49,641 nucleotides of DNA from a virus, in the IMG/VR virus record IMGVR_UViG_3300046734_000766, positions 1-49,641 of that record. One strand, written 5' to 3'. The notes under the pieces are model-generated. The model ran no database searches and was not told the origin of the DNA. It saw nothing but the letters and a program-made list of their open reading frames with translations. A program made the position numbers and the translations under genes. Positions 2,262 to 16,158 of this stretch are shown here, one piece after another (within the stretch, counting starts at the first letter, position 1; every line of letters starts with the position of its first letter).

Positions 2262-2472
2262 CAATCTCCTCCTTGCTTTCTACAAAGGCTTTTAATCCTT
2301 CGCGGACTGCTATGTTTACAAAATCCTCATCGGTCGCACCCTCCTTACCCCACTTAACAAGCATGGCATGGGTATCATCCTCCATCTCAAGATCCCATTC
2401 GACATAGGGAACCTCGCGCTCCTTGAGGATTCGAATAGTTGGTAGATCTTTAATCTCTTCCGGGCTACTCAT
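2242..2472 (-). CDS. Small acidic hypothetical protein
   Basis: 76 residues, start ATG 2472 inside the stop region of the preceding gene (an overlap reading ATGAGTAG). The same overlap and the same first five residues, MSSPE, recur at the start of the nuclease N-terminal ORF at 2077. The protein is rich in Glu/Asp and has no recognisable motif. It belongs to the leftward operon from 2767 to 753. Confidence 0.75.
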   Translation of the reverse strand: MSSPEEIKDLPTIRILKEREVPYVEWDLEMEDDTHAMLVKWGKEGATDEDFVNIAVREGLKAFVESKEEIDEDITE

Positions 2473-2767
2473 TAGAAAGATCGTCTATTTTTCCTGCTAG
2501 CAATACCGCTATCTTCTGAGCCTTCACTAACGATTTCTGTAAAGCATTAATCTGCATAGCTTGAAACCCTAAGTAGTATGCCATAGGATCCTCTACATCC
2601 TTGGGTGCTGTTGCAATCATGTGGCTAACTTGCTCACCGTATTGATATATTTCGGATTGTGTCTCTGCAGGTAATGATGAAAACTTAGTAATCTCCTGTA
2701 TTGCGTCATCAAGTTGGCTCTCTGGATCGCTTTCAGGATCCTCGAAAAAATCGGGATTTAATCTCAT
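2465..2767 (-). CDS. Hypothetical helical protein heading an operon segment
   Basis: 100 residues, ATG 2767. The N-terminus is acidic (FFEDPESDPESQ) and the rest predicts as helix, ending in a Leu/Ala/Lys helix. There is no Shine-Dalgarno site; the leader instead holds ACCACACACC at 2791-2800, 23 nt before the ATG, and a putative promoter element at 2808-2823. Not recognised. As the first gene after a 180-nt spacer it probably starts a transcript covering 2767 to 753. Confidence 0.75.
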   Translation of the reverse strand: MRLNPDFFEDPESDPESQLDDAIQEITKFSSLPAETQSEIYQYGEQVSHMIATAPKDVEDPMAYYLGFQAMQINALQKSLVKAQKIAVLLAGKIDDLSNE

Positions 2768-2790
2768 AATAATATTGGGTTATGTGGGTT

Positions 2791-2800
2791 GGTGTGTGGT
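2791..2800 (-). promoter_or_regulatory. ACCACACACC leader motif
   Basis: One of eight exact copies in the window. It sits 23 nt before the ATG at 2767, in a leader without a Shine-Dalgarno site, in the same sense as the gene. Confidence 0.6.
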
Positions 2801-2807
2801 GTTATGC

Positions 2808-2823
2808 AAATGTATAACACTTG
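2808..2823 (-). promoter_or_regulatory. Putative early promoter/operator element
   Basis: Read leftward this is CAAGTGTTATACATTT, close to the element upstream of the divergent gene at 7869 (AAGTGTTATACTTG) and to the leftward elements at 741 and 6786. It lies about 41 nt before the ATG at 2767. TTATAC/TATACA could be a -10 box; the partly palindromic form also fits an operator. Confidence 0.45.
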
Positions 2824-2847
2824 CGTACGAAAAAGAAAAGTAAAAAA

Positions 2848-2952
2848 TCAAAGAAAAGGTCTTTTCGGCTCAAACTTCTCTTCACGCTTCTTGGTCAAAA
2901 GTCTTTGGATTAAGATCAAAGGTCGTAGGATGTAAGGTATTAGTTTTCTCAT
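2848..2952 (-). CDS. 34-residue basic, hydrophobic micropeptide
   Basis: ATG 2952 overlaps the TGA of the helicase gene (ATGA), the commonest junction in this operon, and the frame runs 34 codons to TGA. The peptide starts MRKLIPYILRPLILIQ, a short hydrophobic helix, and continues with a strongly basic tail (TKKREEKFEPKR). It could be a membrane-associated peptide or a basic helicase partner. The coupling and composition support translation; the function is unknown. Confidence 0.5.
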   Translation of the reverse strand: MRKLIPYILRPLILIQRLLTKKREEKFEPKRPFL

Positions 2953-4268
2953 AATAATGGATTCATCTCATCATCATTGATAAGATCGATGTTGTTCAGT
3001 TTCTTGCGGACAAGACGGCAGACACGCATCTCCACAGTCCCCTCCGCGAATATAATTTTTTGGACGGCAGGGCTCTGGGCTCCCGCCCTGTGAATCCGTC
3101 CAAGTGCTTGTTTCAGGTCAATTGCGCTAAAGCTCGGTGAAATCAGGGACACCCGAGGATGCTTGCCGTTGACATCATGAAGGCTCAAACCTGTGCCTCC
3201 CGCTTGTGTCGTGACCAGACATATCCGGGACTCATCTCTCTGAAATCTTTTAACTTCAAGGTCTCTAGCCACCCCAGACTGAGAACCTTCAATTACACTG
3301 ATTTCATGAGTTCCAGACAGCCTACGAAGCAGAGCCTCGAGCGTCTCCCTAAAATTTACAAATATTACTACGGAGTTATCAGCCTCCAATGCATCACGGG
3401 CGAGCTCTTCAAGGACAGGAACTTTTAATAGCTCCACCTCCTGCCGAGCCCGAAGCTGAAGAGTTAGAGGGTTATCATTATCTGATTTCTTATGTTCAAT
3501 CTCCTCAAGCTTAACCCATAGATCGTGATAAATTTTCTCAATCTCGTTTGTCGATCCGACATCGTAGCCCTCAGGGATAACAACCCCATCAGGGAAGGAG
3601 CCGGGGGGCAGATCGGTGATCTTTAATCTGCTCCCCCGTCCTTCTTTGTAGATGTGATCGTGAATCCTTTTCAAGGCCGACTTATTCCCCGTGAAAGTCA
3701 ATCCGCCAAAGGTTCCACGCTTACACCCGTTTTTGAGACACCAATTCCACCAACCTCTATCATCATGCATCTCTAACAGATAACCTAGAGCACGCATTTC
3801 GATAGGGGAGTTGCAACTGGTCGCACCTAAAGACAGGGTGATTAAGCCTCTGCTCTTAGCCGCGATCATCATCTTTGCGTTTTCGCTCTTCGCGCCCTTG
3901 CACCGATGATCTTCGTCAAAAATTAAAAGTACACGCTCGGGGTGCAGAGTCCATAATCTCTGCGACCCCTTGCGCTTGTAGTACTCTGTCTTGCCACGAA
4001 CCAGACTTTCGTAGTTCAAGACATAGTTAGTGGAGGATGGGTAAAATTTCTGTATCCACTCTTTCCACGATGGGACAACGGACTTAGGGCAAACGACAAA
4101 GGGTGTAAGTCCCAGGTCTTTGGCCACAGACAGAGCGACAACCGTTTTACCGGTGCCCGTATCCGAGCCATCCTTCGCATATCCAAATACAGTAAGCGCA
4201 TCCGAGAGTCTCCTCGCATGAGCCTCCTGCCAATCAAATAGCTTAGGGCATGTAGACTGTTGCTTCAT
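2949..4268 (-). CDS. SF2/SNF2-type DNA helicase (DEAD-like ATPase)
   Basis: 439 residues from ATG 4268, which has AGGTGG five bases upstream; an in-frame GTG at 4277 is possible. Walker A is GSDTGTGKT (about 34-42), motif II is DEDH (118-121) with LLIF before it, and motif VI is QALGRIHRAG near residue 390. The second RecA-like half carries the TTQAGGTGLSLHD and ISPSFSAIDLKQ segments typical of SNF2-type helicases. Length is close to that of short phage SNF2-like helicases and there is no added nuclease domain. It probably remodels replication or recombination intermediates along with the resolvase and split nuclease in this operon. Family confident, exact role inferred. Confidence 0.92.
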   Translation of the reverse strand: MKQQSTCPKLFDWQEAHARRLSDALTVFGYAKDGSDTGTGKTVVALSVAKDLGLTPFVVCPKSVVPSWKEWIQKFYPSSTNYVLNYESLVRGKTEYYKRKGSQRLWTLHPERVLLIFDEDHRCKGAKSENAKMMIAAKSRGLITLSLGATSCNSPIEMRALGYLLEMHDDRGWWNWCLKNGCKRGTFGGLTFTGNKSALKRIHDHIYKEGRGSRLKITDLPPGSFPDGVVIPEGYDVGSTNEIEKIYHDLWVKLEEIEHKKSDNDNPLTLQLRARQEVELLKVPVLEELARDALEADNSVVIFVNFRETLEALLRRLSGTHEISVIEGSQSGVARDLEVKRFQRDESRICLVTTQAGGTGLSLHDVNGKHPRVSLISPSFSAIDLKQALGRIHRAGAQSPAVQKIIFAEGTVEMRVCRLVRKKLNNIDLINDDEMNPLL

Positions 4269-4737
4269 CGTTTCCACCTAATAACATCCCCATAAATTCT
4301 TCTTTAGTGACTCCCTCGCGCTTGCACATGATGTCAAAAGCACGCCACATTTTCCGTATACCTGTTTCCTCAATCTGACGGACACGCTCCCGAGTGACTC
4401 CCATAATGGTGCCAACCTCCTCAAGCGTATAAGTCCGCATACCTTCCGAATCATAGACATGCTCTTCGCCATTAAACAGCACAGTACGCTCACCACGCAT
4501 AAACTCAGATAAACGTACATCGGCATTGGTCTGATCTTCCTTCGTGTTGTTAGGAAACGGTAAGGGCGGTTCCAAGTATTTTTCGCTTAAAGCTTTCGAG
4601 TCCTCGGATTTTGGCACGCGCTTCGAGGAGCTCTTCTTTGACGAAGAGGAGCTCTTTGAATTTTTCCTGCGAGCATTCTTTCGTTGTGAAGCGGTGTCCG
4701 CAACTAGGGCATTCGCGTCTTCTTTTGACCGCGTCAT
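4243..4737 (-). CDS. Sigma-70 region 4-like DNA-binding protein
   Basis: The C-terminal half holds TYTLEEVGTIMGVTRERVRQIEE (split here: TLEEVG, GVTRERVRQIE), a clear sigma-70 region 4.2 helix-turn-helix at about residues 101-135. No regions 1-3 are present. The start is uncertain. ATG 4737 overlaps the stop of the coiled-coil gene (ATGA), giving 164 residues with a Ser/Lys-rich N-terminus that overprints the zinc-ribbon gene by 188 nt. TTG 4575 or ATG 4500 would give 110 or 85 residues without that overlap, but neither has a good ribosome site. It may redirect host RNA polymerase to phage -35 elements or act as a co-sigma together with the region 3-like protein at 5407-5706. HTH call strong; role inferred. 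Confidence 0.75.
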   Translation of the reverse strand: MTRSKEDANALVADTASQRKNARRKNSKSSSSSKKSSSKRVPKSEDSKALSEKYLEPPLPFPNNTKEDQTNADVRLSEFMRGERTVLFNGEEHVYDSEGMRTYTLEEVGTIMGVTRERVRQIEETGIRKMWRAFDIMCKREGVTKEEFMGMLLGGNDEATVYMP

Positions 4738-4798
4738 AATACACCGTCTTCCGTGTTTCCAATACCTCGGTCTTGCTCTCGCATTTTGGACAATTCAT
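4550..4798 (-). CDS. NrdR-type zinc-ribbon protein with coiled-coil tail
   Basis: 82 residues from ATG 4798. The first 45 residues match the NrdR zinc ribbon: Cys3-x2-Cys6, then RRRECPSCGHRFTT with Cys30-x2-Cys33. The ATP-cone that follows in true NrdR is absent; instead there is a Leu/Glu/Lys helix (KELLFVKEELLEARAKI) likely to form a coiled coil. Known NrdR represses ribonucleotide reductase genes, but this short form probably binds DNA or a protein partner without nucleotide sensing. It overlaps the preceding gene by 65 nt and the long version of the sigma-like ORF by 188 nt. Confidence 0.8.
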   Translation of the reverse strand: MNCPKCESKTEVLETRKTVYYDAVKRRRECPSCGHRFTTKECSQEKFKELLFVKEELLEARAKIRGLESFKRKILGTALTVS

Positions 4799-4997
4799 TT
4801 TCCGCCACCTTCCTGGCTATAAAGCGAATGTCCGCGTCCTCCGAGCTCAGCAGGGCTGTTTGCTCGTCTATGTAAACCGAGGGCTTCCTCGATTGTTTTA
4901 GGGCTACTAAAGCCCCTTCTAACTTTGCTAGCCTCTCTAGCATCCCATCCATTGTCGTTTGCATTTGTTCTATTATGTTGCCAATCTTCTGCGTCAT
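4734..4997 (-). CDS. Coiled-coil hypothetical protein
   Basis: 87 residues from ATG 4997, which has GGAGGA at 9 nt; longer upstream starts are unlikely because the extension overlaps the lipoprotein signal region. Residues 5-35 (IGNIIEQM...MLERLAKLEGALVAL) show heptad spacing. The frame overprints the second half of the lipoprotein ORF (4795-5145). Function unknown. Confidence 0.7.
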   Translation of the reverse strand: MTQKIGNIIEQMQTTMDGMLERLAKLEGALVALKQSRKPSVYIDEQTALLSSEDADIRFIARKVAENELSKMREQDRGIGNTEDGVL

Positions 4998-5145
4998 AGG
5001 GGCAGTCCTCCATATTTTGATAATGATACATTTTGTTGTACCGTGCAGTGCCCCCTTCAACCGGGGGCTTGCTGCACGCACACAACACCAGAAATGACAC
5101 AACGGTCATAACTAATATAAAGCTAGCTAGAGTCGCGTTCCGCAT
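4795..5145 (-). CDS. Putative phage lipoprotein
   Basis: 116 residues from ATG 5145, with GAGGAGG upstream. The N-terminus is a convincing signal: short Arg-containing n-region, hydrophobic ATLASFILVMTVVSFLV, and the lipobox LCAC followed by Ser. The mature part is polar with no known domain. From 4997 on it shares DNA with a coiled-coil ORF in another frame, so its C-terminal half may be the less constrained partner. In an early operon a lipoprotein could serve in superinfection exclusion, which is a known role for phage lipoproteins, but that is inference. Signal peptide clear, full length less certain. Confidence 0.6.
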   Translation of the reverse strand: MRNATLASFILVMTVVSFLVLCACSKPPVEGGTARYNKMYHYQNMEDCPYDAEDWQHNRTNANDNGWDAREASKVRRGFSSPKTIEEALGLHRRANSPAELGGRGHSLYSQEGGGK

Positions 5146-5407
5146 CGTTGACCCATACCTCCTCAACCAATCTATCTAGCACTAAAATCATATGCTCGCG
5201 GACAAGCTCACCCGCCAAACGGCGATCGTCAGCACAGTCATGCAATGCACTATGATGCAATTGATCCAACCCCGCAGATATTAAACTGTCTATAACAATA
5301 TCTTGCGAGACCCTTCCCCGCATCTCCTTGAGCAAAATCTCTAAGCCATCGTGAAAAAGCTTCGCCTCTTCAGTGACTTCCATCACCGGATCCATCTCTA
5401 CAGCCAT
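5123..5407 (-). CDS. Hypothetical helical protein
   Basis: 94 residues, start ATG 5407 in a TGATG overlap with the previous stop; a GTG at 5410 is also in frame. Mostly amphipathic helix with a His-rich middle (LDQLHHSALHDCADD). No family recognised. Confidence 0.75.
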   Translation of the reverse strand: MAVEMDPVMEVTEEAKLFHDGLEILLKEMRGRVSQDIVIDSLISAGLDQLHHSALHDCADDRRLAGELVREHMILVLDRLVEEVWVNDAERDSS

Positions 5408-5706
5408 CACAATGATAAAACAGTTCTGACGGTGCTGACACCGCCGGGTAAATTCATCTCACTCGCAAGGACTTCATCTGTCGGCTCCTCGCCAAGCTCT
5501 TTAGTTAATTGCTTTCTGACCTGAAGCAGTTTCTCCTTAAGCGATAGGGCAGGGAGTCTTGGCTCAAGCTCATCGGCGTAAACCTTTACCTCATCGTACA
5601 TACCCCCCATGACATCGTCCACAGCCTTTGGGCCACGGGTCGCAAGGGTTTCAGCCCAAAGCTCAAGGTTAGTAAGTAACTGTTCGTACTTTGTATTAAT
5701 ATCCAT
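5407..5706 (-). CDS. Small protein with sigma-70 region 3-like C-terminus
   Basis: 99 residues from ATG 5706, with AGGAGG at good spacing. The last 40 residues (QVRKQLTKELGEEPTDEVLA then SEMNLP...VSTVR) closely resemble the LTKELGREPTDEELA-type helix pair of sigma-70 region 3. The first 55 residues are helical and not recognised. The region 4-like protein lies four genes downstream in the same operon, so the two might complement each other as a split sigma or bind host polymerase separately. The resemblance is by eye to a short motif, and the helices may serve another purpose. Confidence 0.6.
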   Translation of the reverse strand: MDINTKYEQLLTNLELWAETLATRGPKAVDDVMGGMYDEVKVYADELEPRLPALSLKEKLLQVRKQLTKELGEEPTDEVLASEMNLPGGVSTVRTVLSL

Positions 5707-5719
5707 TGTTGGTATCCTC

Positions 5720-6214
5720 CTATCTTATATCACGCACAGCATCCCAGTACTCGTCTTCGATTAAACGGTACAGCTCCTTGTGATTTTGTTTTTGTTTGTC
5801 TGTTAAAGGTATTGGTAAGCAGTCAAAGAATGCCAGTAGCTCAAAGAATGAACCTCTCGCATAACTAAGAAACTGAATCTTTTGCTTGGGCGTGTTCCGT
5901 CCGACACCCTCAGCTATATTAGCTGCAATCGAAGTCGAATTGCGCTGAATCTGACTGAGAACATCCCCGTACTCCTTGAGCAGGTGCCGGGCATTGTTGG
6001 GCGCATAGAGCAATTTGAAAACATCTCGTGCAACCTCAACAGCAAGCTCATAAACCCGGGTTTTAAAAGCACCTCCTGTTACTCCGTGACGGCAGAAGCT
6101 ACCTTCTTCCCATTCGCGGAAACCATCAGGATCACCAAGCTGTTCTTCGACTTGAGATTTAAAGGTCTCCTCAAGCTGAACTTCAGCCCACTCCTCTTTT
6201 GTCATGTTGTACAT
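5720..6214 (-). CDS. Four-helix bundle protein (23S-rRNA intervening-sequence/Avd-like family)
   Basis: 164 residues, ATG 6214 in a TGATG overlap; Met4 is an alternative. From about residue 54 the sequence fits the TIGR02436-type four-helix bundle: VYELAVEVARDVFKLL, then QIQRNSTSIAANIAEGVGR, then FLSYARGSFFELLAF. These bundles form homopentameric barrels and include the Avd accessory of diversity-generating retroelements. No reverse transcriptase or template repeat was seen in the window, so a retroelement role is not supported. The N-terminal 50 residues, with acidic clusters, are extra relative to the family. A nucleic-acid-binding role is plausible. Confidence 0.8.
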   Translation of the reverse strand: MYNMTKEEWAEVQLEETFKSQVEEQLGDPDGFREWEEGSFCRHGVTGGAFKTRVYELAVEVARDVFKLLYAPNNARHLLKEYGDVLSQIQRNSTSIAANIAEGVGRNTPKQKIQFLSYARGSFFELLAFFDCLPIPLTDKQKQNHKELYRLIEDEYWDAVRDIR

Positions 6215-6402
6215 CAGATGAATCGGGTTACGCGGTCCTCATTCGAATCCGCAGTTGTTTGTGGTCTCTGGTATTTAAGCTTCTCGTCCGTATGATCGAG
6301 ACGGCTGTCGAGCCTACCGATCAATCCACGCAGGACCTTGACGGTACTCTCCAAATGGATTACCCGATCCTTTAGCTGTTCAATAATTTGACTTTCTTTC
6401 AT
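6214..6402 (-). CDS. Small coiled-coil protein
   Basis: 62 residues, ATG 6402 in an ATGA overlap with the preceding gene and ending in TGATG with the next. Residues 4-42 form an uninterrupted heptad-like helix (EQLKDRVIHLESTVKVLRG). It may be an oligomerisation partner for a neighbour. No family recognised. Confidence 0.75.
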   Translation of the reverse strand: MKESQIIEQLKDRVIHLESTVKVLRGLIGRLDSRLDHTDEKLKYQRPQTTADSNEDRVTRFI

Positions 6403-6677
6403 ACCGCGGCCTCCTCAGGTTTCTTAGCCCATACGGATTCCTCAAGCTCTTCATAGCTGTCAAAGCCAAGAAGCTGGAGCGCTCTGTACGCCTCGCCGTC
6501 CAGCGCTACATGAAAATCGCAGAGCTCTTGGTTTTTAGTCGGCTCGGAATCATCCAACGGCATATCCCAATCAGACTCGGGAATGTCAGCCTCCTCGAAT
6601 TTAGTCTGAAAGCTCCAGATCTCTAATAATAATTTCCGAAGCGCGGCCTCGGCATCAGGATTTAATTTATCTTTCAT
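6399..6677 (-). CDS. Acidic hypothetical protein
   Basis: 92 residues from ATG 6677, rich in Glu/Asp, with Trp-containing segments. Two ACCACACACC motifs lie just upstream (6688-6697 and 6700-6709) and a putative promoter element further up (6786-6799). It heads the segment 6677 to 2949. No Shine-Dalgarno consensus is visible. Not recognised. Confidence 0.75.
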   Translation of the reverse strand: MKDKLNPDAEAALRKLLLEIWSFQTKFEEADIPESDWDMPLDDSEPTKNQELCDFHVALDGEAYRALQLLGFDSYEELEESVWAKKPEEAAV

Positions 6678-6687
6678 AATCTCTAGT

Positions 6688-6709
6688 GGTGTGTGGTTTG
6701 GTGTGTGGT
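6688..6709 (-). promoter_or_regulatory. Tandem pair of ACCACACACC leader motifs
   Basis: Two exact copies (6688-6697 and 6700-6709) separated by 2 nt, both in the sense of the leftward gene starting at 6677, the closer one 10 nt before its ATG. This is the only tandem pair in the window. Confidence 0.65.
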
Positions 6710-6715
6710 TTTTAA

Positions 6716-6753
6716 ATCCCTCCCCCTAGTGTTAGCGCACCGGAAGGAGGGAT
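6716..6753 (-). terminator. Possible hairpin between early gene groups
   Basis: ATCCCTCC at 6716-6723 pairs perfectly with GGAGGGAT at 6746-6753 around a 22-nt loop. Read leftward it is followed by TTTAAAAA, a weak T tract. It could attenuate transcripts from the 7722 promoter before the 6677 gene. The loop contains GTGCGCTAACAC, which also appears in the hairpin at 8777-8800. Confidence 0.35.
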
Positions 6754-6785
6754 GATTAAATGAAACTAAGTCTTCAATGAATCAC

Positions 6786-6799
6786 AATGTTATACACTC
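6786..6799 (-). promoter_or_regulatory. Putative early promoter/operator element
   Basis: Identical 14-mer to 741-754 (AATGTTATACACTC in plus-strand reading); leftward it offers TATAAC as a -10. It lies 109 nt before the ATG at 6677 with the hairpin and the ACCACACACC pair in between. Confidence 0.45.
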
Positions 6800-6823
6800 G
6801 TCAAACATTTTTCGAAAAAAGTT

Positions 6824-7063
6824 TTAATTTTCTTCTTTTTCCCTCGCAAGCCGCTCTAACAAAGCTCCTCTGAGCCCCGCCTGCAAAAGATCAAGCTGCC
6901 CAAAAACCTCTGATCCGAACTTTACGATCTCATCAAGGAGCGAATCCTCGATGACTAATTCCAAATGGTAGGGGCGATCGGCTCCGTCATCATGCTCAAT
7001 CTTCACTACATCTATGGTGCCGATTACCTCATGCCCCTCATCATTATATACCTGTACTTTCAT
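6824..7063 (-). CDS. Hypothetical protein
   Basis: 79 residues from ATG 7063, or 80 from ATG 7066, which overlaps the preceding micropeptide stop as ATGA. The N-terminal half looks like beta strands (MKVQVYNDEGHEVIGTIDVV) and the C-terminal half like a Leu-rich helix. Not recognised. Confidence 0.7.
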   Translation of the reverse strand: MKVQVYNDEGHEVIGTIDVVKIEHDDGADRPYHLELVIEDSLLDEIVKFGSEVFGQLDLLQAGLRGALLERLAREKEEN

Positions 7064-7137
7064 CATCTATTTAGAAGCGTCTCCAACGCCATTGCTATTA
7101 TAGTAATTACGAAGAGCCATACGAATAGCTCTATCAT
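7063..7137 (-). CDS. 24-residue single-span membrane micropeptide
   Basis: ATG 7137 overlaps the TGA of the resolvase gene (TGATG), and its own TGA overlaps the ATG of the next gene (ATGA). Between them is a 24-codon frame, MIELFVWLFVITIIAMALE plus LLNR: one hydrophobic span with an acidic residue at each side. Precise coupling at both ends makes it likely to be translated. It is too short to classify; it might be an early membrane-active peptide. Confidence 0.6.
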   Translation of the reverse strand: MIELFVWLFVITIIAMALETLLNR

Positions 7138-7583
7138 CAAAGGTTTTTATAGTAGTTCATGATCAGGACCGCATCCGCAGTCGCATTCGTGATCTTTAGA
7201 TCAGGATACAGCCGAATGGCATTGTCCTTAAGCTGACGCTTCCGGGCTGTATACCCCATCTTAGGCTTCAACCCCACCAATCCCTTCTGCCAAATCTGAG
7301 GCTTCACCAGGTGGAGCGGAAACTTTAATGCCCGAAGGCTTCCGGTAATGACACCAAAATTTTGGCCTAACTTAAAAGAGCTAGCATTCGATGTCATTGC
7401 GCTAACGAATGCGGGTACATCTTCAACCACTGCCTCGTAATCCTCAGGATCAAGGCTACGGAGCATATCTATATGCTCATGGTCTACGGTCCAAGGCTTT
7501 AGGCTGATGGTCTTAGCATCTGGTCGGAGGATGCAGGCTCCGCCACCTTTACCTGGATCAAAGGCTATTATTCCCTGAGGCAT
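7137..7583 (-). CDS. RuvC-like Holliday-junction resolvase
   Basis: 148 residues, ATG 7583. The RNase H-type fold is indicated by IIAFDPGKGGG with Asp9, VVEDVPAF with Glu54, KLGQNFGVITG, the LVKPQIWQKG segment and TADAVLI with Asp137, which together give the acidic active-site set of phage RuvC-like resolvases. Length is typical of small phage forms. It would cut branched DNA during recombination or before packaging. It overlaps the upstream ribbon-helix-helix gene by 26 nt and has no clear ribosome site, so translation is probably coupled. Confidence 0.88.
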   Translation of the reverse strand: MPQGIIAFDPGKGGGACILRPDAKTISLKPWTVDHEHIDMLRSLDPEDYEAVVEDVPAFVSAMTSNASSFKLGQNFGVITGSLRALKFPLHLVKPQIWQKGLVGLKPKMGYTARKRQLKDNAIRLYPDLKITNATADAVLIMNYYKNL

Positions 7584-7722
7584 CCGCGAATTTCTTAAGG
7601 TACATTGTAACCGCCTTACGGACTAGCTGAGAGGTCGTTGTCACTTCCTCTAAGGCCTGAGCCTTCAGGGTAGACAGAAGGTCATCGTCGAGCCTTATGT
7701 TGATCTGTGTATTCTTACGCAT
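7558..7722 (-). CDS. Ribbon-helix-helix DNA-binding protein (54 aa)
   Basis: ATG 7722 to TGA at 7558-7560. The sequence TQINIRLDDDLLSTLKAQAL is a classic ribbon-helix-helix start (beta strand then helix), followed by TTTSQLVRKAVTMYLKKF. Such CopG/Arc-like proteins bind as dimers to short palindromes, often their own promoter. It is the first gene of the leftward early operon, divergent from a second such gene at 7869. AATGTTCTACATT at 7726-7738, directly before the ATG, is a likely operator for one of them. Confidence 0.8.
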   Translation of the reverse strand: MRKNTQINIRLDDDLLSTLKAQALEEVTTTSQLVRKAVTMYLKKFADASGNNSL

Positions 7723-7725
7723 AAC

Positions 7726-7738
7726 AATGTTCTACATT
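7726..7738 (-). promoter_or_regulatory. Operator/promoter-like site in the divergent control region
   Basis: AATGTTCTACATT resembles the AATGTTATACACTC elements at 741 and 6786 and lies 3 nt upstream of the leftward start at 7722. Its closeness to the ATG suits a repressor site overlapping the transcript start. Confidence 0.35.
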
Positions 7739-7810
7739 ATCTAGCACCGGTATGCAAGGGATTGGGAGTAAGAATTACTGTCAAGCAGAAAAAGTTTGCA
7801 AATGTATATA

Positions 7811-7824
7811 AAGTGTTATACTTG
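7811..7824 (+). promoter_or_regulatory. Putative promoter/operator for the rightward gene at 7869
   Basis: AAGTGTTATACTTG has inverted AAGT/ACTT arms around GTTAT. It lies 44 nt before the ATG and matches the leftward element at 2808-2823. TATACT can be read as a -10, with TTGCAA (15-nt spacing) as a poor -35. Confidence 0.45.
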
Positions 7825-7842
7825 TCTCGTAAACAACTCCTA

Positions 7843-7852
7843 ACCACACACC
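7843..7852 (+). promoter_or_regulatory. ACCACACACC leader motif
   Basis: Exact copy 16 nt before the ATG at 7869; no Shine-Dalgarno site is present in the leader. Confidence 0.6.
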
Positions 7853-7868
7853 AAAAATAAACGTTAAA

Positions 7869-8132
7869 ATGAGTAAAAATAAACCTCTCAAACTACCTAG
7901 GAAGAATCTTGCCCTGAATCGTGAACACAAAGATATCACATGTGCAGTTCGTCTTCCAAAAACCATGTACGAGCAGCTTTGCGAAGTAGCGAAAGTAGAG
8001 AATTCGTCAATTTCTGATGTGATTCGTACAGCTTTAGTCGGAAAAATCGAGGAGTTTGCCGATAAGCAAATGGAGCGTGAGCTCAAAGCTGCTAAGCTGG
8101 AGGCCGAACTCCGTAGGCTCAGAGGAGCTTAA
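7869..8132 (+). CDS. Ribbon-helix-helix-type DNA-binding protein (87 aa)
   Basis: ATG 7869. The segment ITCAVRLPKTMYEQLCEVAK followed by SISDVIRTAL fits the ribbon-helix-helix pattern (strand, helix, turn with NSS, helix). An N-terminal basic arm and a C-terminal Glu/Lys-rich helix (ERELKAAKLEAELRRL) that may oligomerise are extra. It faces away from a 54-residue protein of the same fold across a 146-nt control region, suggesting mutual or auto-regulation of the early genes. It has no close rightward partner. Confidence 0.8.
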   Translation: MSKNKPLKLPRKNLALNREHKDITCAVRLPKTMYEQLCEVAKVENSSISDVIRTALVGKIEEFADKQMERELKAAKLEAELRRLRGA

Positions 8133-8341
8133 GGAGAAACCATAAAACCAGGAGATCAACCCTATTTCAGAAGTCCTTGATTATCAAGGGGAGCTGAGAC
8201 TCTATATGGTTTATGGTTTTATTTATTAAAAGTATAGATATTAAGTATATTATATAGGGGCTACGCCCTGTACCCCCCAGAGTGCGTTCCCCAGGATATG
8301 GGTTAGCAACCATAAACCATATAACCATGAGAATGTTATTA
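8133..8341. other. Gene-free convergent spacer containing an inverted repeat
   Basis: Between the rightward gene ending at 8132 and the leftward ORF ending at 8342. No supported gene is present; a leftward frame at 8167-8397 has poor composition and contains the repeat. It contains the 16-bp inverted repeat (8203/8308) and a short GGGGC-TAC-GCCC hairpin near 8257. Confidence 0.6.
8203..8323. repeat. Perfect 16-bp inverted repeat around an 89-nt interior
   Basis: TATATGGTTTATGGTT at 8203-8218 is the exact reverse complement of 8308-8323. The interior is AT-rich with a small GC hairpin and a run of C. It sits where convergent transcripts meet. It may be a long-stem bidirectional terminator, a structured RNA or an origin-type element. 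Confidence 0.7.
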
Positions 8342-8461
8342 TTATTCATCATTTTGTGATAAATATACCAAAATAGGACTCCAGTCGAGATTTTCATCTT
8401 CGGATTCGACCGAAATTATTAGCCCATCATCCGCATCGAGCAAGATATGGGTGTGTTTCAC
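8342..8461 (-). CDS. 39-residue acidic protein coupled to the HNH gene
   Basis: GTG 8461 overlaps the HNH stop (GTGA) and the frame runs 39 codons to TAA at 8342-8344. The sequence (THILLDADDGLIISVESEDE, then LDWSPILVYL) has the alternating hydrophobic/acidic look of a real small beta-containing protein. AAAGG just upstream is a usable ribosome site. Its acidity beside the very basic HNH protein suggests a partner or inhibitor; this is inference. Confidence 0.5.
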   Translation of the reverse strand: MKHTHILLDADDGLIISVESEDENLDWSPILVYLSQNDE

Positions 8462-8700
8462 CTTTTCTTTTTGCGGGAAAAGCTACGATTTTTGGACTTT
8501 GAGACAACCCTAAGGTTTTTCCTTCTATTGTCGGCTGTATTTCGGTTCTTGTGATCGACATCCTTGCCGTCACCTTTCCGAACTAAACCTGCCTTTGTCA
8601 TCTTTCTCCGGGCAGCATTTCGTTGAGCCCTTCTTTTCTTTTGAACAGGTTTCTTGTGGTATGACTTATATTCGTTTTTGTAGTTTCTTGGTTTACTCAC
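8458..8700 (-). CDS. HNH-type endonuclease-like protein
   Basis: 80 residues from GTG 8700, chosen because the protein then starts at SKPRNYKNEY, the usual start pattern of this phage family; a TTG at 8736 would add 12 residues. After a strongly basic stretch (QKKRRAQRNAARRKMTKAG) comes KDVDHKNRNTADNRRKNLRV, the compact HNH motif with His50 and the downstream Asn residues. Such proteins occur singly in many podovirus genomes and may nick DNA at packaging or act as free-standing homing endonucleases. It lies between the control region and the middle cassette, opposite to both neighbours. Confidence 0.75.
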   Translation of the reverse strand: MSKPRNYKNEYKSYHKKPVQKKRRAQRNAARRKMTKAGLVRKGDGKDVDHKNRNTADNRRKNLRVVSKSKNRSFSRKKKR

Positions 8701-8769
8701 GTAAATAAGTATCTGGCAATCGTAGTTGACCTGCAATCAGATGTATTACATTGGTTGTCACTCGTTCAC

Positions 8770-8800
8770 AAAAAAAAGGACTGTGCGCTAACACAGTCCT
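8770..8800 (-). terminator. Rho-independent terminator reading leftward
   Basis: AGGACTGTG (8777-8785) pairs perfectly with CACAGTCCT (8792-8800) around CGCTAA. On the minus strand the stem is followed by a run of about seven T; on the plus strand there is no T tract. It would stop leftward transcription coming out of the cassette before the HNH gene. Confidence 0.75.
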
Positions 8801-8813
8801 AAAATAGAAAATA

Positions 8814-8849
8814 ACCACACACCATATGAGATTATCAACTAATATTTAG
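8814..8849 (+). other. Leader motif joined to a truncated copy of the rIIA-like gene start
   Basis: ACCACACACCATATG is followed by a seven-codon frame, MRLSTNI then TAG (8826-8849). The first 19 nt from this ATG match the start of the rIIA-like gene at 14025 with one mismatch, and the leader matches 13960-13973. It looks like a fused remnant of the region upstream and at the start of rIIA, or a leader peptide. Confidence 0.5.
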
Positions 8850-8888
8850 ACTTTTACTTAAAGGCTTAGCCTTTGTCAATACGGATCA

Positions 8889-8948
8889 TCCGCTAGCTAC
8901 TATCATTAAAGGTTAGTTGCTCTATATTTTTTCCCCATTCCATCAGGT
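8889..8948 (+). promoter_or_regulatory. Promoter-like 60-nt direct repeat, copy 1
   Basis: Imperfect copy of 16575-16635, sharing TCCGCTAGCT, ACTATCATTAA, ATATT and TTTCCCCATT-CAT-AGGT blocks in order. It lies upstream of the first cassette gene (9009), after a hairpin. No other copy was noticed in the window. It is likely the start signal for the middle transcript. Confidence 0.6.
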
Positions 8949-9008
8949 GTAATAGGTGTAAATATATCCCTGTTACATACTACAAATCACTAACAACTAC
9001 ATACAGCT

Positions 9009-9437
9009 ATGAACGAACAAATCACTATCACATCAGAGCAACAACTAGGCAACCTACTACAAATATATAACGAAGTAGATTTAATCGTGCCAAAACCGCT
9101 AACGAAAGAGCAACGGCTCACACTCAATGAACTAAACCATAAACCACTATGGGAACGCGTAGGTGTAGACGAATTCAATGCGTACAAACAACAGACCATT
9201 GAGTTCCAATCCAAGATCATGTCTCACACGCTTGAAGTAGTCATGAGTCAAATGAAACACATGTTCGATAACATGTCAGAATTTGATGAACGCATTCTAC
9301 GCGAAAACTTCTACATCAAGACACCAGAGTACAAAATGCTTGGTAAAGGTATGCAGCAAGCATTCTTCCTAATCAATGGTATGACCGGTGCAATGGCTCG
9401 TCCTAATGCCAACGAATACAAACCCGCGGCCAACTAA
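9009..9437 (+). CDS. Hypothetical protein, first gene of middle cassette
   Basis: 142 residues from ATG 9009. No Shine-Dalgarno site; leader is A/C-rich. The sequence is helical with a Met-rich middle (SHTLEVVMSQMKHMFDNM) and a C-terminal GMQQAFFLINGMTGAMA segment. No family recognised. Its position directly after the repeated promoter-like sequence suggests high expression. Confidence 0.75.
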   Translation: MNEQITITSEQQLGNLLQIYNEVDLIVPKPLTKEQRLTLNELNHKPLWERVGVDEFNAYKQQTIEFQSKIMSHTLEVVMSQMKHMFDNMSEFDERILRENFYIKTPEYKMLGKGMQQAFFLINGMTGAMARPNANEYKPAAN

Positions 9438-9441
9438 TCCA

Positions 9442-9451
9442 ACCACACACC
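9442..9451 (+). promoter_or_regulatory. ACCACACACC leader motif
   Basis: Exact copy ending 3 nt before the ATG at 9455, in a 17-nt intergenic gap too short to hold both a promoter and a leader. This favours a role in translation or RNA binding over promoter function. Confidence 0.6.
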
Positions 9452-9454
9452 ATC

Positions 9455-10021
9455 ATGCAAATCGACTACAACAACATAACCAAAGAAAAACGGTCGCTTG
9501 AAGAGCTACTGCTATTCCTTCTGTGGTGTACTGTAACTCCAGGTAAAAAGTCTCAGACTATTACACCTGCATTCAACAGTATATTCACATCAATCAAACC
9601 ATCTGATCTACTCAACAAAGACGGTCGCACTATCACTGCTGCACTTCGGAATGCACGCATTGGTCAGTACAAAAGACTGTCAGCTTGTTGGCGTAAAATC
9701 AGTCAATACAAACCGTATGGTCAGTTCTTCAAAGTACATCGCGATGAGCTAATGCAAAACATACCAGGTATCGGTCCCAAAACTGCATCCTTCTTTGTTC
9801 TGCATAGCCGTCCATACGAAGACATTGCAGTACTTGATGTACACATTTTGCGATACTTACAGCAACAGTTCCCTAAGTATCCAATACCAGAACAAACACC
9901 GCAAGATCTCGATGAATACAAACGCCTCGAAGCTATGTTCATTGGGCTTGCTGCACAACAAGACAAATCTGTCAGCAGTCTCGATACTGAAATCTGGCAA
10001 AAGTTCTCAACCTCAAACTAA
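9455..10021 (+). CDS. HhH-GPD DNA glycosylase-like protein (Ogg/AGOG-like)
   Basis: 188 residues. The helix-hairpin-helix is IPGIGPKTASFF with Lys109, followed by IAVLDVHILRYL with Asp128. These match the catalytic Lys and Asp of bifunctional Ogg-type glycosylase/AP lyases. Length is shorter than cellular Ogg1, resembling archaeal-type minimal forms. It may remove oxidised or modified bases from phage or host DNA. A base-modifying use of the fold is possible. It is separated by three genes from a second glycosylase-like gene (12369-13007). Confidence 0.82.
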   Translation: MQIDYNNITKEKRSLEELLLFLLWCTVTPGKKSQTITPAFNSIFTSIKPSDLLNKDGRTITAALRNARIGQYKRLSACWRKISQYKPYGQFFKVHRDELMQNIPGIGPKTASFFVLHSRPYEDIAVLDVHILRYLQQQFPKYPIPEQTPQDLDEYKRLEAMFIGLAAQQDKSVSSLDTEIWQKFSTSN

Positions 10022-10031
10022 TACACACTAC

Positions 10032-10418
10032 ATGGACAAACCAATAATTATACACCGTTCAAAACTTGAACAATTGCTACTTACTACGCGTGGCAAAATA
10101 TTCAATGTATGTTGGACTAAAAAAGATGGAACAGAACGCTGCGCAAATGCACGACTTGGAGTAACCAAGCACCTCAAAGGTACTGGCATGCCTCCGAGTC
10201 TAAAACATTCATATATATCAATATATCTAATGTGGACCATGGATGGACACACCTTCGAAGCTGAACGCGGCTACCGTAATCTCAACCTCGACACTATCAC
10301 TTCAGTGCGTCTGCATGGTGTCGAATGCGTTGTTACACCTATACCAATCGCTCAACACATCGACCTGACAACAACAACTCAACCCATACCAAACAATGTC
10401 ATCGCTATGTCGGCCTAG
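10032..10418 (+). CDS. SH3-barrel, DUF2693-like phage protein
   Basis: 128 residues from ATG 10032, chosen because the family pattern begins soon after it: GKIFNVCWTKKDGTERCANARLGVTKHLKGTG, then MWTMDGHTFEAERGYRNLNLDTI (shortened: the GVTKHLKG and GYRNLNLDTI blocks are diagnostic). DUF2693-like proteins are small SH3-type barrels of unknown role common in phages. A Thr/Pro-rich tail follows. No ribosome site is seen. Confidence 0.7.
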   Translation: MDKPIIIHRSKLEQLLLTTRGKIFNVCWTKKDGTERCANARLGVTKHLKGTGMPPSLKHSYISIYLMWTMDGHTFEAERGYRNLNLDTITSVRLHGVECVVTPIPIAQHIDLTTTTQPIPNNVIAMSA

Positions 10419-10629
10419 CAGCAATCATCGTCGGTTCTTCTTTCACTACAACAAACAACACAAGTGCCTGTCGTTGCACTACAAAAACAAATGTCTACTA
10501 ACGACAAACATCAAATGCGATGTGCCTATCGAATCGCATCATAACAAGTCACAACCACACATCGTAATGCGTGGCTGGGCTGAAACAATATACCACACAC
10601 CAACCAAAACAGTAATAGCATAACAGATT
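10419..10629 (+). other. 211-nt spacer with leader motif; no convincing gene
   Basis: An open frame from 10396 to 10623 exists, but its His/Asn/Lys/Cys-rich product resembles translated A/C-rich noncoding DNA and it contains the ACCACACACC motif at 10592-10601, which is otherwise only in leaders. Shorter frames of 17-18 codons are also present. I treat this as an untranslated leader for the DUF932 gene. Confidence 0.5.
10592..10601 (+). promoter_or_regulatory. ACCACACACC leader motif
   Basis: Exact copy 28 nt before the ATG at 10630; no Shine-Dalgarno site is present. Confidence 0.55.
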
Positions 10630-11415
10630 ATGAAACTAAATAACTCACGCACCGTTGACTTCAACGGATTAACACAAATATCAACGCCAGCACCTACTGC
10701 TACTTGGCAACCAATGCCGCATCATGAGGTTATGACAACTGTCATTGAGCAAGCAGAAAAACGCGATCTTCATATTGATGAACTCAAGTATCAAATTGTT
10801 GATGTAGTAGAAAATAAAGTACGCCAACCACATCCTGACATGTTTGCTACCATGTATATGGAAAGCGAAAACGGTGTCTATCGTAACATGCTCGGCATTC
10901 GTAACAGTCACAACAAACGCTTCGGCGCATCCGCATGTTCAGGTGGCCAAGTGCTTGTATGTTCAAATGGTTACTTCACTGGTGATCACATAATCTCCAG
11001 CAAACATACCAAACATGTACACACTAACTTCAACAATCGTGTATCAAACATGCTCGATCAAGTAGTACAGACATGGTCAAACAACGAGACCCGCTTCAAC
11101 AAGTATATGGAAACAGAACTATCTATGAATAACTTCTACCAAATACTAGGTGACGCTATCATCAACGGTGCACTACCTCAAAGCAAAGCTGAAAAAGTAC
11201 ATACTGAATACCTTGATCCACGACACGATGCATTTGCTGATCGCAATGCCTGGTCTGCATTCAATGCATTCACTGAAATTCACAAAGAATGTAGAACCTC
11301 AATCGCTAACTCAGCACAACGCGGTATCGCATTGCACAAAGTGTTCGATCGTTTCTGCAATGTACAACTAACTAACCCAGCTGATACAATTCAATCACAG
11401 CTTCAACTCAACTAA
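10630..11415 (+). CDS. DUF932 family protein
   Basis: 261 residues. The family blocks appear in order: MPHHEVMTTVIEQAEKRDLH near 29-48, YRNMLGIRNSHNKRFGASAC (84-103), GGQVLVCSNGYFTGDH (105-120), the KHTKHVH segment, and AFNAFTEI in the last third. DUF932 proteins are widespread on phages and plasmids and their function is not settled. Length is normal. The gene follows a 211-nt leader and is followed immediately by a small zinc-ribbon ORF. Confidence 0.85.
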   Translation: MKLNNSRTVDFNGLTQISTPAPTATWQPMPHHEVMTTVIEQAEKRDLHIDELKYQIVDVVENKVRQPHPDMFATMYMESENGVYRNMLGIRNSHNKRFGASACSGGQVLVCSNGYFTGDHIISSKHTKHVHTNFNNRVSNMLDQVVQTWSNNETRFNKYMETELSMNNFYQILGDAIINGALPQSKAEKVHTEYLDPRHDAFADRNAWSAFNAFTEIHKECRTSIANSAQRGIALHKVFDRFCNVQLTNPADTIQSQLQLN

Positions 11416-11628
11416 TTGAGTTATGCTCGTGCTCTAAAAATTCTTGGCAACCGTGCTAAATACACACCTGCAGAGATACGAGAAGCAACAGCAACTTACT
11501 ACAAAATAAACAGCTTAAGTCGCTGTCCTATATGTAACAAACAAAAGTCTACATATGGTACAACGCCCTGTTTACAATGTAGCACGCTATACTCACCTAA
11601 AATAAATAAATACTATGACATCAGCTAA
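11416..11628 (+). CDS. Small zinc-ribbon protein (TTG start)
   Basis: 70 residues from TTG 11416, directly after the DUF932 stop; no ATG is available. It carries CPIC at residues 37-40 and CLQC near 52-55, a treble-clef or ribbon spacing, after a basic helix. It overlaps the following gene by 14 nt. The unusual start lowers confidence, but the Cys pairs and tight packing support it. Confidence 0.5.
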   Translation: MSYARALKILGNRAKYTPAEIREATATYYKINSLSRCPICNKQKSTYGTTPCLQCSTLYSPKINKYYDIS

Positions 11629-12379
11629 CACAACGTTACGCTGGTCAGCTAGTAACGCAAAGTTACCAGACAGAATCAAACATCTCAGTCTGCCGTCAGG
11701 ACACTCGTGCCCGGCGGCAGACGAATGTCTGTCAAAAGCTGACCAAACAACCGGTAAAATCACAGATGGCGACTCAACCAAGTTCAGATGCTATGCAGCA
11801 ACTATGGAAGCTCGTCACTCAGCTATACGCAAACAACGATGGAACAACTTCCTTCTATTACGAAAGAAAAGTAGGAAACAAATGTTCAAGCTATTGTTCA
11901 ACAGTCTACGACCGCTGCACGATAACTATCACCGTAACCATCAACAACGACCTATTGTACGCGCACACATAGGTGGCGACTTCTTCAACCAATCCTACTT
12001 CTTGGCTTGGTGTGATCTAGCTCGTGCCTTTGCACCAACTTGGTTCTACAGCTACACTAAACGCATTGATCTATGGGTTGCTAACATGGAACACATTCCA
12101 TCCAACTTCGAACTCAATGCATCATGGGGCGGTAAACATGACCACCTCATCACAACCCATAATCTAAAATCTGCTCAAGTTGTATACTCAAAACAAGAAG
12201 CTAACAAAAAAGGACTAGAAATCGACAATGACGACTCACACGCATACAAACGCGGACCAGACTTCGCTCAACTTATTCACGGCACCCAACCAGCGGGCAG
12301 CGAAGCCAGCAAAGCGCTTACGCTTCTCAAGCTATCGGGGTGGACAGGGTATCGTGCAAATACCTCGTGTGCATCGTAA
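11615..12379 (+). CDS. Gene product 88-like family protein
   Basis: 254 residues. Diagnostic blocks: LSLPSGHSCPAADECLSKAD with Cys32 and Cys38, TKFRCYAATMEA with Cys59, VRAHIGGDFFNQSYFLAW, then YSYTKRIDLW and the C-terminal HGTQPAGSEASKAL segment. This matches the mycobacteriophage Gp88-type family, whose biochemical role is unknown; the conserved Cys and GGDFF motifs suggest a metal or nucleotide site. The leader holds ATAAATACTATGA, shared with the rIIA start at 14025. The end overlaps the next gene. Confidence 0.75.
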   Translation: MTSANTTLRWSASNAKLPDRIKHLSLPSGHSCPAADECLSKADQTTGKITDGDSTKFRCYAATMEARHSAIRKQRWNNFLLLRKKSRKQMFKLLFNSLRPLHDNYHRNHQQRPIVRAHIGGDFFNQSYFLAWCDLARAFAPTWFYSYTKRIDLWVANMEHIPSNFELNASWGGKHDHLITTHNLKSAQVVYSKQEANKKGLEIDNDDSHAYKRGPDFAQLIHGTQPAGSEASKALTLLKLSGWTGYRANTSCAS

Positions 12380-13007
12380 GCGTATAACAAAGTTCTTCGC
12401 TAGTATTACACCGTATACTAAAGCACGCTATATCAATCAATGGATTGACTTGCGTCCTCGGTCTGATCACGAAGAAATCAATCGCTTCCGCTTTGCATAC
12501 TGCACAGTACACACAAGCTGGCTCAACAGTTGTATTCAGTATGATGCTATTCGTAATCTATACGATAATGTATCGCTGAACCAACTGTCTAGTATACTCA
12601 AAGATACACCTGGCGGTATGTACAATATCAAAGCTGTCGGTATCGACAAGCTACACGAACTATGGGACTCCAACATATTCGTAAAACAAAACAGTGTTCA
12701 ATGGCAACGCTTCCGCAATGTCATTACAGATAACCTGCCCAAGCTTGGTCTAGCTAAAACCAGCTTCGCACTCGAGATGATCTACCCATTGACTGCTCAA
12801 GTCATATGCATCGATCGTCACATGTGGAAAGCATTCGGTTGGCTCGACCCTGACAAATCAGGTTCACCAGCACAATACCACTACTACGAGAACTACTGGC
12901 TTATGCTATCCAAAGCATACGATGTCCCACCAGTAATTGCTCGCAACATATTCTGGGACCAAATCCAAAATCAACCAAACAGCCTATATTGGGCAAAATA
13001 TCTATGA
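12369..13007 (+). CDS. Second HhH glycosylase-like protein
   Basis: 212 residues from GTG 12369; an ATG at 12228 would add 47 residues but overprint the conserved end of the gene-88 protein. The hairpin region LPKLGLAKTSFALEMI with Lys130 and VICIDRHMWKAF with Asp149 keep the Lys/Asp pair of HhH-GPD glycosylase-lyases, though the hairpin has one residue more than Ogg. The sequence differs strongly from the 9455 protein, so this is not a recent duplicate. Start uncertain; fold moderately sure. Confidence 0.7.
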   Translation: MHRKRITKFFASITPYTKARYINQWIDLRPRSDHEEINRFRFAYCTVHTSWLNSCIQYDAIRNLYDNVSLNQLSSILKDTPGGMYNIKAVGIDKLHELWDSNIFVKQNSVQWQRFRNVITDNLPKLGLAKTSFALEMIYPLTAQVICIDRHMWKAFGWLDPDKSGSPAQYHYYENYWLMLSKAYDVPPVIARNIFWDQIQNQPNSLYWAKYL

Positions 13008-13960
13008 ATAATATAGCATACTCATACCAAGATGAATCTGTATTCGTACACGATCTCATAAACCATAACGCCGTCACTATCACCAGTGACCGAATGAACT
13101 ACCGTCCATTAATTGATGCAATCAAAAAAGGTGATGAAGAAACCGTTCGCGATCTACTTGATGAATCAAATGTTCTCAAGTCTGTATCTAACGGACGCGT
13201 TACTGTTCGCGGTAACAAAGTATTCCTTGATGGCAACAAGCTTCATTCAGCAGAAGCACAAAAACTAATCGACCTTGTATCAGAAGGTGCAAGCGACATT
13301 GATCGCTGGTTTCGCTTCATCGAAAAGTTGCACGACAATCCATCGTACAACTGTCGTCAGCAAGCATACAACTTCATCAAACACAGCGGTATGCCCATGA
13401 ATAAAACAGGTAATCTCATCGGTTACAAAGGTGTGCGTGATGACTACAAAGATAAATACTCTGGCAAGTTCGACAACAGCGTCGGCCAAGTACTATCAAT
13501 GCCTCGGTCTGGTGTTGACGACAACCCAGATCACGGCTGCTCATCAGGCTTCCATGTAGGTTCACATGACTATGCTGACTCATGGGCTGGTGACGATGGC
13601 AAACTAATGACTGTCGAATATAGTCCAGCAGACATCGTATCTGTACCTAACGAATGTGATTACGGTAAACTGCGTGTATGCAAATATACAGTCATCGCAG
13701 AAAATACCAGCCGCGCTAAACTCAACAACGGTGGCTACGGTGTTTCATCAGTTGACAGCAATGCATTGTTTGACTGGCTTGATGCTCGTGTCCATAATGA
13801 TGTACCTGTTTACTTCCGAGAAGTACAACATGCATTCCCAAATGTAGGTATGTCTGATATCCGTGACTGCATAATAAATCAAAGTCACTACCACGCCGAC
13901 TTCGGCTTCGATAATCACATGAATGATTTCACAATCAGATTCATGGAACTTCCATCCTAA
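13004..13960 (+). CDS. rIIB-like: rIIB-like protein
   Basis: 318 residues from ATG 13004, which overlaps the preceding stop as ATGA. The sequence follows the rIIB-like family throughout: INHNAVTITSDRMNYRPLID at the start, a GRVTVRGNKVFLDG strand, RFIEKLHDNPSYNCR, GNLIGYKGVRDDYKDKYSG, CSSGFHVGSHDYADSW and EYSPADIVSVPNECDYG. T4 rIIA/rIIB form a membrane-associated pair that blocks rex-type exclusion and affects lysis. Here rIIB precedes rIIA, the reverse of T4, with a 64-nt gap and the leader motif between them. Confidence 0.88.
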   Translation: MNNIAYSYQDESVFVHDLINHNAVTITSDRMNYRPLIDAIKKGDEETVRDLLDESNVLKSVSNGRVTVRGNKVFLDGNKLHSAEAQKLIDLVSEGASDIDRWFRFIEKLHDNPSYNCRQQAYNFIKHSGMPMNKTGNLIGYKGVRDDYKDKYSGKFDNSVGQVLSMPRSGVDDNPDHGCSSGFHVGSHDYADSWAGDDGKLMTVEYSPADIVSVPNECDYGKLRVCKYTVIAENTSRAKLNNGGYGVSSVDSNALFDWLDARVHNDVPVYFREVQHAFPNVGMSDIRDCIINQSHYHADFGFDNHMNDFTIRFMELPS

Positions 13961-13969
13961 CCACACACC
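13960..13969 (+). promoter_or_regulatory. ACCACACACC leader motif
   Basis: Exact copy starting in the stop codon of the rIIB-like gene, 55 nt before the rIIA ATG at 14025; an ATG in frame with rIIA lies 13 nt away at 13983. Confidence 0.55.
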
Positions 13970-14024
13970 ATATGACCTGAGCATGTCAACAAACTGCTCA
14001 ACTCACACAACAACTATAAATACT

Positions 14025-16154: not shown

Positions 16155-16158
16155 TATC

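Follow-up and report, generated by a model that had tools for sequence, protein, structure and literature searches.

A repeated leader motif and a predicted antisense small RNA in a family of phages

A 49,641-base stretch of viral DNA, IMG/VR virus record IMGVR_UViG_3300046734_000766 (hereafter the window), carries repeated copies of the 10-nucleotide (nt) motif ACCACACACC in the leaders of its genes. Here, we propose that this motif is the mRNA partner in an RNA-RNA pairing system in which a phage-encoded small RNA of ~75 nt targets the phage's own leaders, a reading to which we assign a probability of roughly 70%. The best-evidenced partner of the motif is an RNA predicted at one of eight copies listed in the initial annotation of the window, the copy at 8814, where the motif stands antisense in a conserved layout of hairpins, terminator and TTGAC box. 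The repetition of the motif, its position in the leaders and the joint variation of seed and leaders in one relative also speak for the pairing. If so, one RNA and a repeated tag would let a phage family known from sequence alone control a regulon of its own genes.

Results

The window was scanned whole and on both strands, and all eight exact copies of ACCACACACC lie where the initial annotation had placed them, at 2791, 6688 and 6700 on the minus strand and at 7843, 8814, 9442, 10592 and 13960 on the plus strand. Counted with complements, the motif and its overlapping shift CCACACACCA are the top 10-mers of the window, with 8 copies each, and the late arm (16520-49641) is indeed free of exact copies on either strand. 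The claimed excess over chance is borne out by 300 local dinucleotide shuffles, in which the mean never exceeded 0.03 copies against two to three observed per region (0.007 against 3 at 1-7800, minus; 0 against 2 at 7800-9000, plus; 0.03 against 3 at 9000-16520, plus; at 16520-49641, plus, none was observed). Chance or local composition is thereby ruled out as the cause of the repeats.

Seven of the eight copies are in leaders, as had been stated for all, and six of them fall within the 3-28 nt distance to the ATG that had been given for most. On the minus strand the predicted target sites are 2791-2800, 23 nt before the ATG of gene 2465-2767, and 6700-6709 together with a second site at 6688-6697, 22 and 10 nt before the ATG of gene 6399-6677. 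On the plus strand they are 7843-7852, 16 nt before the ATG of the CopG/Arc-like gene 7869-8132 and downstream of a sigma-70-like promoter (7795-7822); 9442-9451, in a 17-nt gap and 3 nt before the ATG of the Ogg-HhH-like gene 9455-10021; and 10592-10601, 28 nt before the ATG of the DUF932 gene 10630-11415. The site at 13960-13969 (plus) does not fit the stated distance: the ATG 2 nt on opens a two-codon frame only, and the likely start of the rIIA-like gene 14025-16154, set at 14025 by likeness to relatives, comes 55 nt after the motif, with a further in-frame ATG at 13983. Two near copies on the plus strand are possible weak sites, one at 10554-10563 (C to T, where a G-U pair would remain) and one at 16163-16172 (C to A), just inside the start of gene 16159-16512. 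The leader claim fails for the copy at 8814: the ATG behind it opens a 7-codon frame only, the next gene starts at 9009, and the copy is the antisense of the predicted small RNA gene.

This predicted trans-acting RNA (~75 nt) occupies 8770-8846 on the minus strand, with an inferred 5' end and a 3' end at a T run. Its layout, all on the minus strand, comprises a TTGAC box (TTGACA at 8873-8878, a probable -35 box, with a weak -10 box, TAAAAG, at 17 nt), a hairpin with the seed UGGUGUGUGGUU (8813-8824, the copy at 8814 read antisense and complementary to the leader motif) and an intrinsic terminator hairpin (8777-8800) followed by a T run towards 8770, the stems of which covary in relatives. The window RNA folds into two hairpins at -24.3 kcal/mol (z-score -5.2) and matches the covariance model at 85 bits, the window being part of the training set. 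A separate RNA gene with promoter and intrinsic terminator is thus present as far as sequence can tell; secondary structure is conserved on the transcribed strand, with double changes in the terminator stem only, and the complementarity extends to leaders encoded elsewhere, at 7 other window copies and 83 deduplicated copies across the family. Rfam gave no match at gathering scores in the window, L030, L031 or L011.

Relatives were gathered with the HhH and GP88 proteins, and the layout of the RNA recurs in 15 contigs, which include the window and several near copies; three of the 15 were found after the model was built. A strong antisense terminator (-15.5 to -21.6 kcal/mol) stands at one motif copy only in each of 12 contigs, and the other terminator matches among 163 core copies are three antisense (-8.8, -8.9 and -11.0) and one sense (-11.8). 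The antisense RNA folds as two hairpins in all six loci tested (z-score -4.3 to -7.5), the plus strand of the tested loci gives the terminator stem alone or weak folds, and nine of nine have the weaker seed hairpin on the sense strand. In an alignment of nine RNAs (A5) the seed core is invariant except for a change in the relative G021; RNAalifold, run on the same alignment, picked a different register for hairpin 1. In all 12 loci examined (nine plus three new ones) TTGAC lies 55-57 nt upstream of the seed core GGTGTGT, while its distance to a rightward GCTAGC element varies from ~14 to 36 nt by eye, so that the TTGAC box goes with the RNA. The region, with its adjoining HNH-like gene, is covered by 16 contigs (one at a contig end), 12 of which have both motif and RNA, three neither (G003, G005 and G019) and one the motif only.

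The covariance model, run over 66 and 50 sources, scored highly only in training contigs and their close kin, and it found no RNA near motif copies in further genomes of the probable host order, where 12 loci were scanned. A seed-pattern scan of viral contigs gave 38 stretches, which were then scored with the model. Scores of 52-93 bits were reached by 12 of the 38, nine from contigs already known and three from new ones (L219, L199 and L231) that are outside the training set and score 52-84 bits. All three have the TTGAC box and both hairpins, with 3-7 additional copies of the motif in each stretch examined, and L199 and L231 are 65-70% like the nearest previously known contigs. Further copies of the motif or its variant are held by ten of the 12 high scorers, the other two being short stretches of G012 and G024. 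Among the 26 low scorers, 22 hold just the match itself, and the remaining four are pieces of G002, G017 and G022 plus one new family contig, L200. Across the 12 RNAs, 95.1% of cells are paired (80.2% when shuffled), the covariation score is 0.537 (0.239 when shuffled) and double changes occur in 10 of 11 terminator pairs, counts that lean towards the model because the alignment was fitted to it. When the seed-hairpin arms, outer stems included, are swapped between RNAs, pairing becomes weaker (mean -9.8 kcal/mol, compared with -12.7 for arms with their own partners), and none of 20000 permutations did as well as the true pairing, a figure that is not a strict probability since three of the twelve rows share one 3' arm.

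The motif occurs in 18 of 24 further records searched, which answers the question of conservation in relatives, and the number of sites is seven in the window, eight in its near copy G002 (68 kb) and up to ten in G018. In the GP88 tree, 17 motif-labelled rows and one variant row fall in one supported 20-row clade (100/99), which also contains the motif-free G003 and G019; the program warns of long branches meeting in the tree, and G023 (L067) was labelled 'none'. Counts of context, Shine-Dalgarno (SD) cores and start distance leave out near copies and fragments (G002, G004, G007, G012 and G024) as well as G023, both copies of which lie in a CA-rich repeat and not in leaders. The family unit is 12 nt, A-ACCACACACC-A: position -1 is A in 71 and position +11 in 80 of 84 distinct contexts (87 with three merged as repeats), and no position outside the unit exceeds 0.53 bits.

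An ATG of an open reading frame of at least 40 amino acids follows within 30 nt for 66 of 83 deduplicated copies outside the small RNA, compared with 22% of nearby random positions, so the motif does track gene starts; for 13 of the 83 there is none within 60 nt. Most copies have one orientation to transcription, in the sense of the following gene as the initial annotation had it, and the antisense or in-frame exceptions are G016 27019, G020 15686 and G021 15457. The copies precede different genes, and behind one copy in G001 lies a gene that was not seen at the corresponding position of the window. Although reading frame and peptide differ at the integrase start of G002 and G017, both retain the motif as DNA. 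An SD core is present at none of 68 starts behind the motif, a set that has not been deduplicated and in which small-RNA copies may be counted where the first ATG after them opens a frame, compared with 7 of the 16 called left-arm starts of the window. The claim that the leaders lack SD sites therefore stands, but weakly, since only 13-22% of untagged starts across the family have an SD core (crude gene calls, false frames included). The motif itself often fills the SD slot. Together, the 66 of 83 copies near an ATG and the lack of SD cores indicate that the motif belongs to gene starts.

Seed and leaders change together in G021, where both read AACAACACACCA in place of AACCACACACCA. This phage has five exact AACAACACACCA copies outside the small RNA and three further CAACACACCA copies, one of them near the start of a rIIA-like gene; its single remaining ACCACACACC lies inside a coding frame. 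One variant leader precedes a gene whose start resembles that of window gene 2465-2767, the leader of which has the site at 2791. In eight phages the mean duplex energy of leaders with their own seed is -23.2 to -33.7 kcal/mol, against a mean of -13.9 for 300 random window stretches. The G021 RNA reaches -18.7 to -22.1 with foreign leaders, which with their own seeds reach -26.5 to -33.7. The seed hairpin is weak (-6.3 to -10.3 kcal/mol), so the duplex would outweigh it.

The host is probably a member of the Opitutales (Verrucomicrobiota). A genome scan with A4 gave 15 loci and one with A2 no match, and a relative is contained in the record Opitutales bacterium isolate AH-709-J17 (G029, 2.1 Mb, partial), a single-cell genome to judge from its name. 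There, a 14.3-kb integrated element (L182 2259-16565, contig 27) is bounded by 42-bp direct repeats, the sequence of which corresponds to the beginning of a tRNA-Leu(CAA) gene. Next to one of the repeats is a gene called integrase-like from its homology and location, with no Pfam match, and the genes beyond the element include malate dehydrogenase-, MotA- and MutS-like ones. The element may be a cryptic prophage or satellite; besides the integrase-like gene it still has the gene for the small RNA and a few of the middle genes, and all four 12-mers of the genome fall inside it. Near the homologous integrase, the same attachment (att) sequence recurs unaltered in G012 and G016 and with slight differences in G017 (one change) and G002 (two changes); the window ends before this region. 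Searches for isolate neighbours with GP88, terminase and RIIA gave only matches below 60% identity, and no isolate DNA similar to window 9000-20000 was found in near mode.

Other genes of the window encode a helicase, a sigma-70 region 4 protein, GP88, DUF932, and RIIB- and RIIA-like proteins. Adjoining the small RNA gene, the element GCTAGCTACTATCATT (8892-8907, plus) is the probable promoter of the rightward middle operon; elements of the GGCTAGCNACTATCAT type stand at 8892 and 16578 (plus), where they head the middle operon and precede the late genes, respectively; they recur in many relatives and are probably phage promoters. On its other side, 8458-8736 (minus) encodes the HNH-like protein, which is small and basic. 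Apart from the near copy, relatives share 75-90% identity with it (60% in one match cut by a contig end); this conservation holds even in G003, where the HhH protein is at 55%. A second conserved element, GACCTGAGCATGTC-N6 to N9-ACTGCTCA, starts at 13974 (plus) and has 27 pattern matches in 20 contigs including the window (five in G020, one of them poor). It often directly follows the motif in the rIIA leader, is also found in the motif-free G003 and G019, and could form a TGAGCA/TGCTCA plus GAC/GTC pseudoknot; it has no Rfam match at gathering score. Repeats resembling ACCATAAACCATA at 8136-8340, seen by eye beside the CopG/Arc-like gene, are possible operators or partition sites, and AAAACCATA repeats are also present in G003 and G005. 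A phage gene at 5720-6214 (minus) matches Pfam 23S_rRNA_IVP (PF05635; E 1.1e-15), and 23567-35206 (plus) is a single frame of 3879 codons.

Discussion

We suggest that a phage that looks temperate, given the integrase homologues and attP-like sequence of its group, encodes a ~75-nt RNA between its left and middle operons. The first hairpin would present the seed and the second would serve as the intrinsic terminator, and the 12-nt complement would mark the leaders of early, replication, middle and integrase genes, mostly 0-29 nt before the start codon. Once made, the RNA would pair with these leaders in trans over the region that the 30S subunit must reach and so block initiation; expression of the tagged genes would fall, possibly aided by Rho acting on untranslated, C-rich message, and the repression would serve lysogeny or timing. 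Activation instead of repression is still conceivable. The middle operon strand (9000-16520, plus) is C-rich and G-poor (C 24.8%, G 17.5%). More tentatively, and with the odds rather against it, the RNA might be an immunity system, by which a prophage or stripped remnant silences the tagged leaders of its own and related incoming phages. The 14.3-kb remnant in G029, with its RNA gene, would then be able to silence incoming phages, and the G021 variant suggests that tag and seed would co-evolve as an immunity type.

Several observations weigh against the pairing system. The plus strand of the window at the RNA locus has an equally low z-score (-5.2; -15.0 kcal/mol, without the seed hairpin), which is due to the terminator stem. 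The -10 box is weak and variable among loci, and a consensus promoter scan of the window did not have the small RNA promoter among those found. The lowest of the random window stretches reached a duplex energy of -30.4, and the G021 leaders pair with the foreign seeds of G018 (-24.5) and G010 (-23.2) as well as or better than with their own (-23.2), so that the joint change in G021 is moderate support. None of the eight counted seed-hairpin pairs shows a double change, and the own arm ranks first in just five of 12 RNAs; support for the seed hairpin comes from the outer arms. The new contigs were retrieved with the seed itself as the pattern, and one of them, L219, is close to G015 and G016 (~83% like). 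Hfq was not found in the partial host genome G029. Finally, G020 has tagged leaders and no such RNA in the expected place, although its contig may be incomplete (54 kb compared with 68-69 kb for G002, G016 and G019). One leader copy of G020, at 22883 (minus), was rejected as a candidate for the missing RNA, given that by eye it follows promoter-like sequence and has only a weak antisense terminator.

An unlikely alternative holds that a phage repressor binds the leader copies as DNA and there blocks transcription elongation, as with stoperators, and that the RNA at 8814 merely overlaps one such site. The CopG/Arc-like gene (7869-8132) would be a candidate for encoding the cognate repressor. 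The temperate look of the group would suit such a repressor, as would the asymmetry and single orientation of the motif (with few exceptions), which stoperators share together with a consensus that differs by genome in the available part of the account (PMC6550527). The joint change in G021 would equally fit a repressor of altered specificity, and 21 of 83 copies abut a stop codon. However, the motif follows start codons and not gaps, the previous stop being more than 40 nt away for 31 of the 66 copies with an ATG within 40 nt, and protein-bound DNA sites leave unexplained the conserved antisense hairpin, terminator and TTGAC box that accompany a single copy in each phage.

Quite improbable in our view is that the motif enhances initiation in place of the SD sequence, read by a phage protein or a phage-modified ribosome, with the RNA, if made, as an antagonist that covers it. 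Both the lack of SD cores at the 68 tagged starts and the placement 0-29 nt before an ATG in 66 of 83 copies would be expected of such an enhancer, and by eye untagged middle genes and the motif-free G003 also have A/C-rich leaders without a clear SD site. Against this, SD cores are uncommon behind untagged starts as well, spacing to the ATG is loose, and G003, G005 and G019 manage without the motif. Nor is it a host element: the initial annotation had considered a host translation factor and a general replacement of SD, but the 12-mer is near background in the host's order, with 20 copies in 51 other Opitutales genomes compared with 10 for a backward control that overlaps the motif itself and is not fully independent, and a host translation element was accordingly rejected. 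Pairing with rRNA was set aside too, given that GGTGTGTGG is absent from E. coli 16S, 23S and 5S rRNA, where the longest exact complement is 7 nt. For Opitutales 16S, there was none in G029 and a partial one in 1 of 11 genomes, and the G033 region is without a 16S landmark or GGTGTGT. Least credible of all is that a phage RNA polymerase or sigma factor uses the motif as its promoter or operator, even though a sigma-70 region 4 phage protein is encoded at 4243-4737 and some early copies come, by eye, just after a -10-like box. Conservation is limited to 12 nt with sharp edges, on which ground a phage or T7-like promoter was rejected; operon heads have a different element, GGCTAGCNACTATCAT, and motif copies recur within operons in short gaps.

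If the pairing system is real, it provides a search rule for viral metagenomes, which is to find the tag and then its antisense copy beside a terminator, and G021 is a directly testable case of seed and target changing together. Judged from search results only, the literature on phage small RNAs gave no case of this design, and a literature search with the motif strings had no phage title among the matches listed.

The c4 RNA of P1 and P7 is also a small phage RNA that controls phage genes by pairing. As far as the source at hand describes it, the CI RNA of P4 acts in lysogeny by pairing with seqA and seqC, which brings about premature termination (PMC4825925), and the RNA predicted here resembles it as a small phage RNA that would control phage genes through complementary sequences. 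Unlike the CI RNA, which derives by processing from the very transcript under its control and acts on two targets close by, the predicted RNA would be a separate gene with its own terminator and many leaders genome-wide. It is not of the P4 CI or c4 type in being processed from, and acting within, a controlled operon, as it has its own box and terminator on the strand opposite to the middle operon; nor does it match a curated family (0 Rfam matches, with no relation sought beyond Rfam). In the available text of a review, VpdS, PreS, 24B_1, sar and OOP are small RNAs of temperate phages that act on phage or host messages, VpdS and PreS with Hfq, while PreS, sar and OOP are described with single targets and phage small RNAs mostly with one or few (PMC12197685). 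The present case differs from those reviewed there in that many leaders of the same phage carry a repeated 12-nt site matching a single predicted seed. With the stoperators of cluster A mycobacteriophages, as far as their description goes (PMC6550527), the motif shares short asymmetric repeats, mostly in one orientation, and a genome-specific consensus. Unlike stoperators, which are bound as DNA by a repressor protein, one copy here is antisense within a predicted structured RNA gene.

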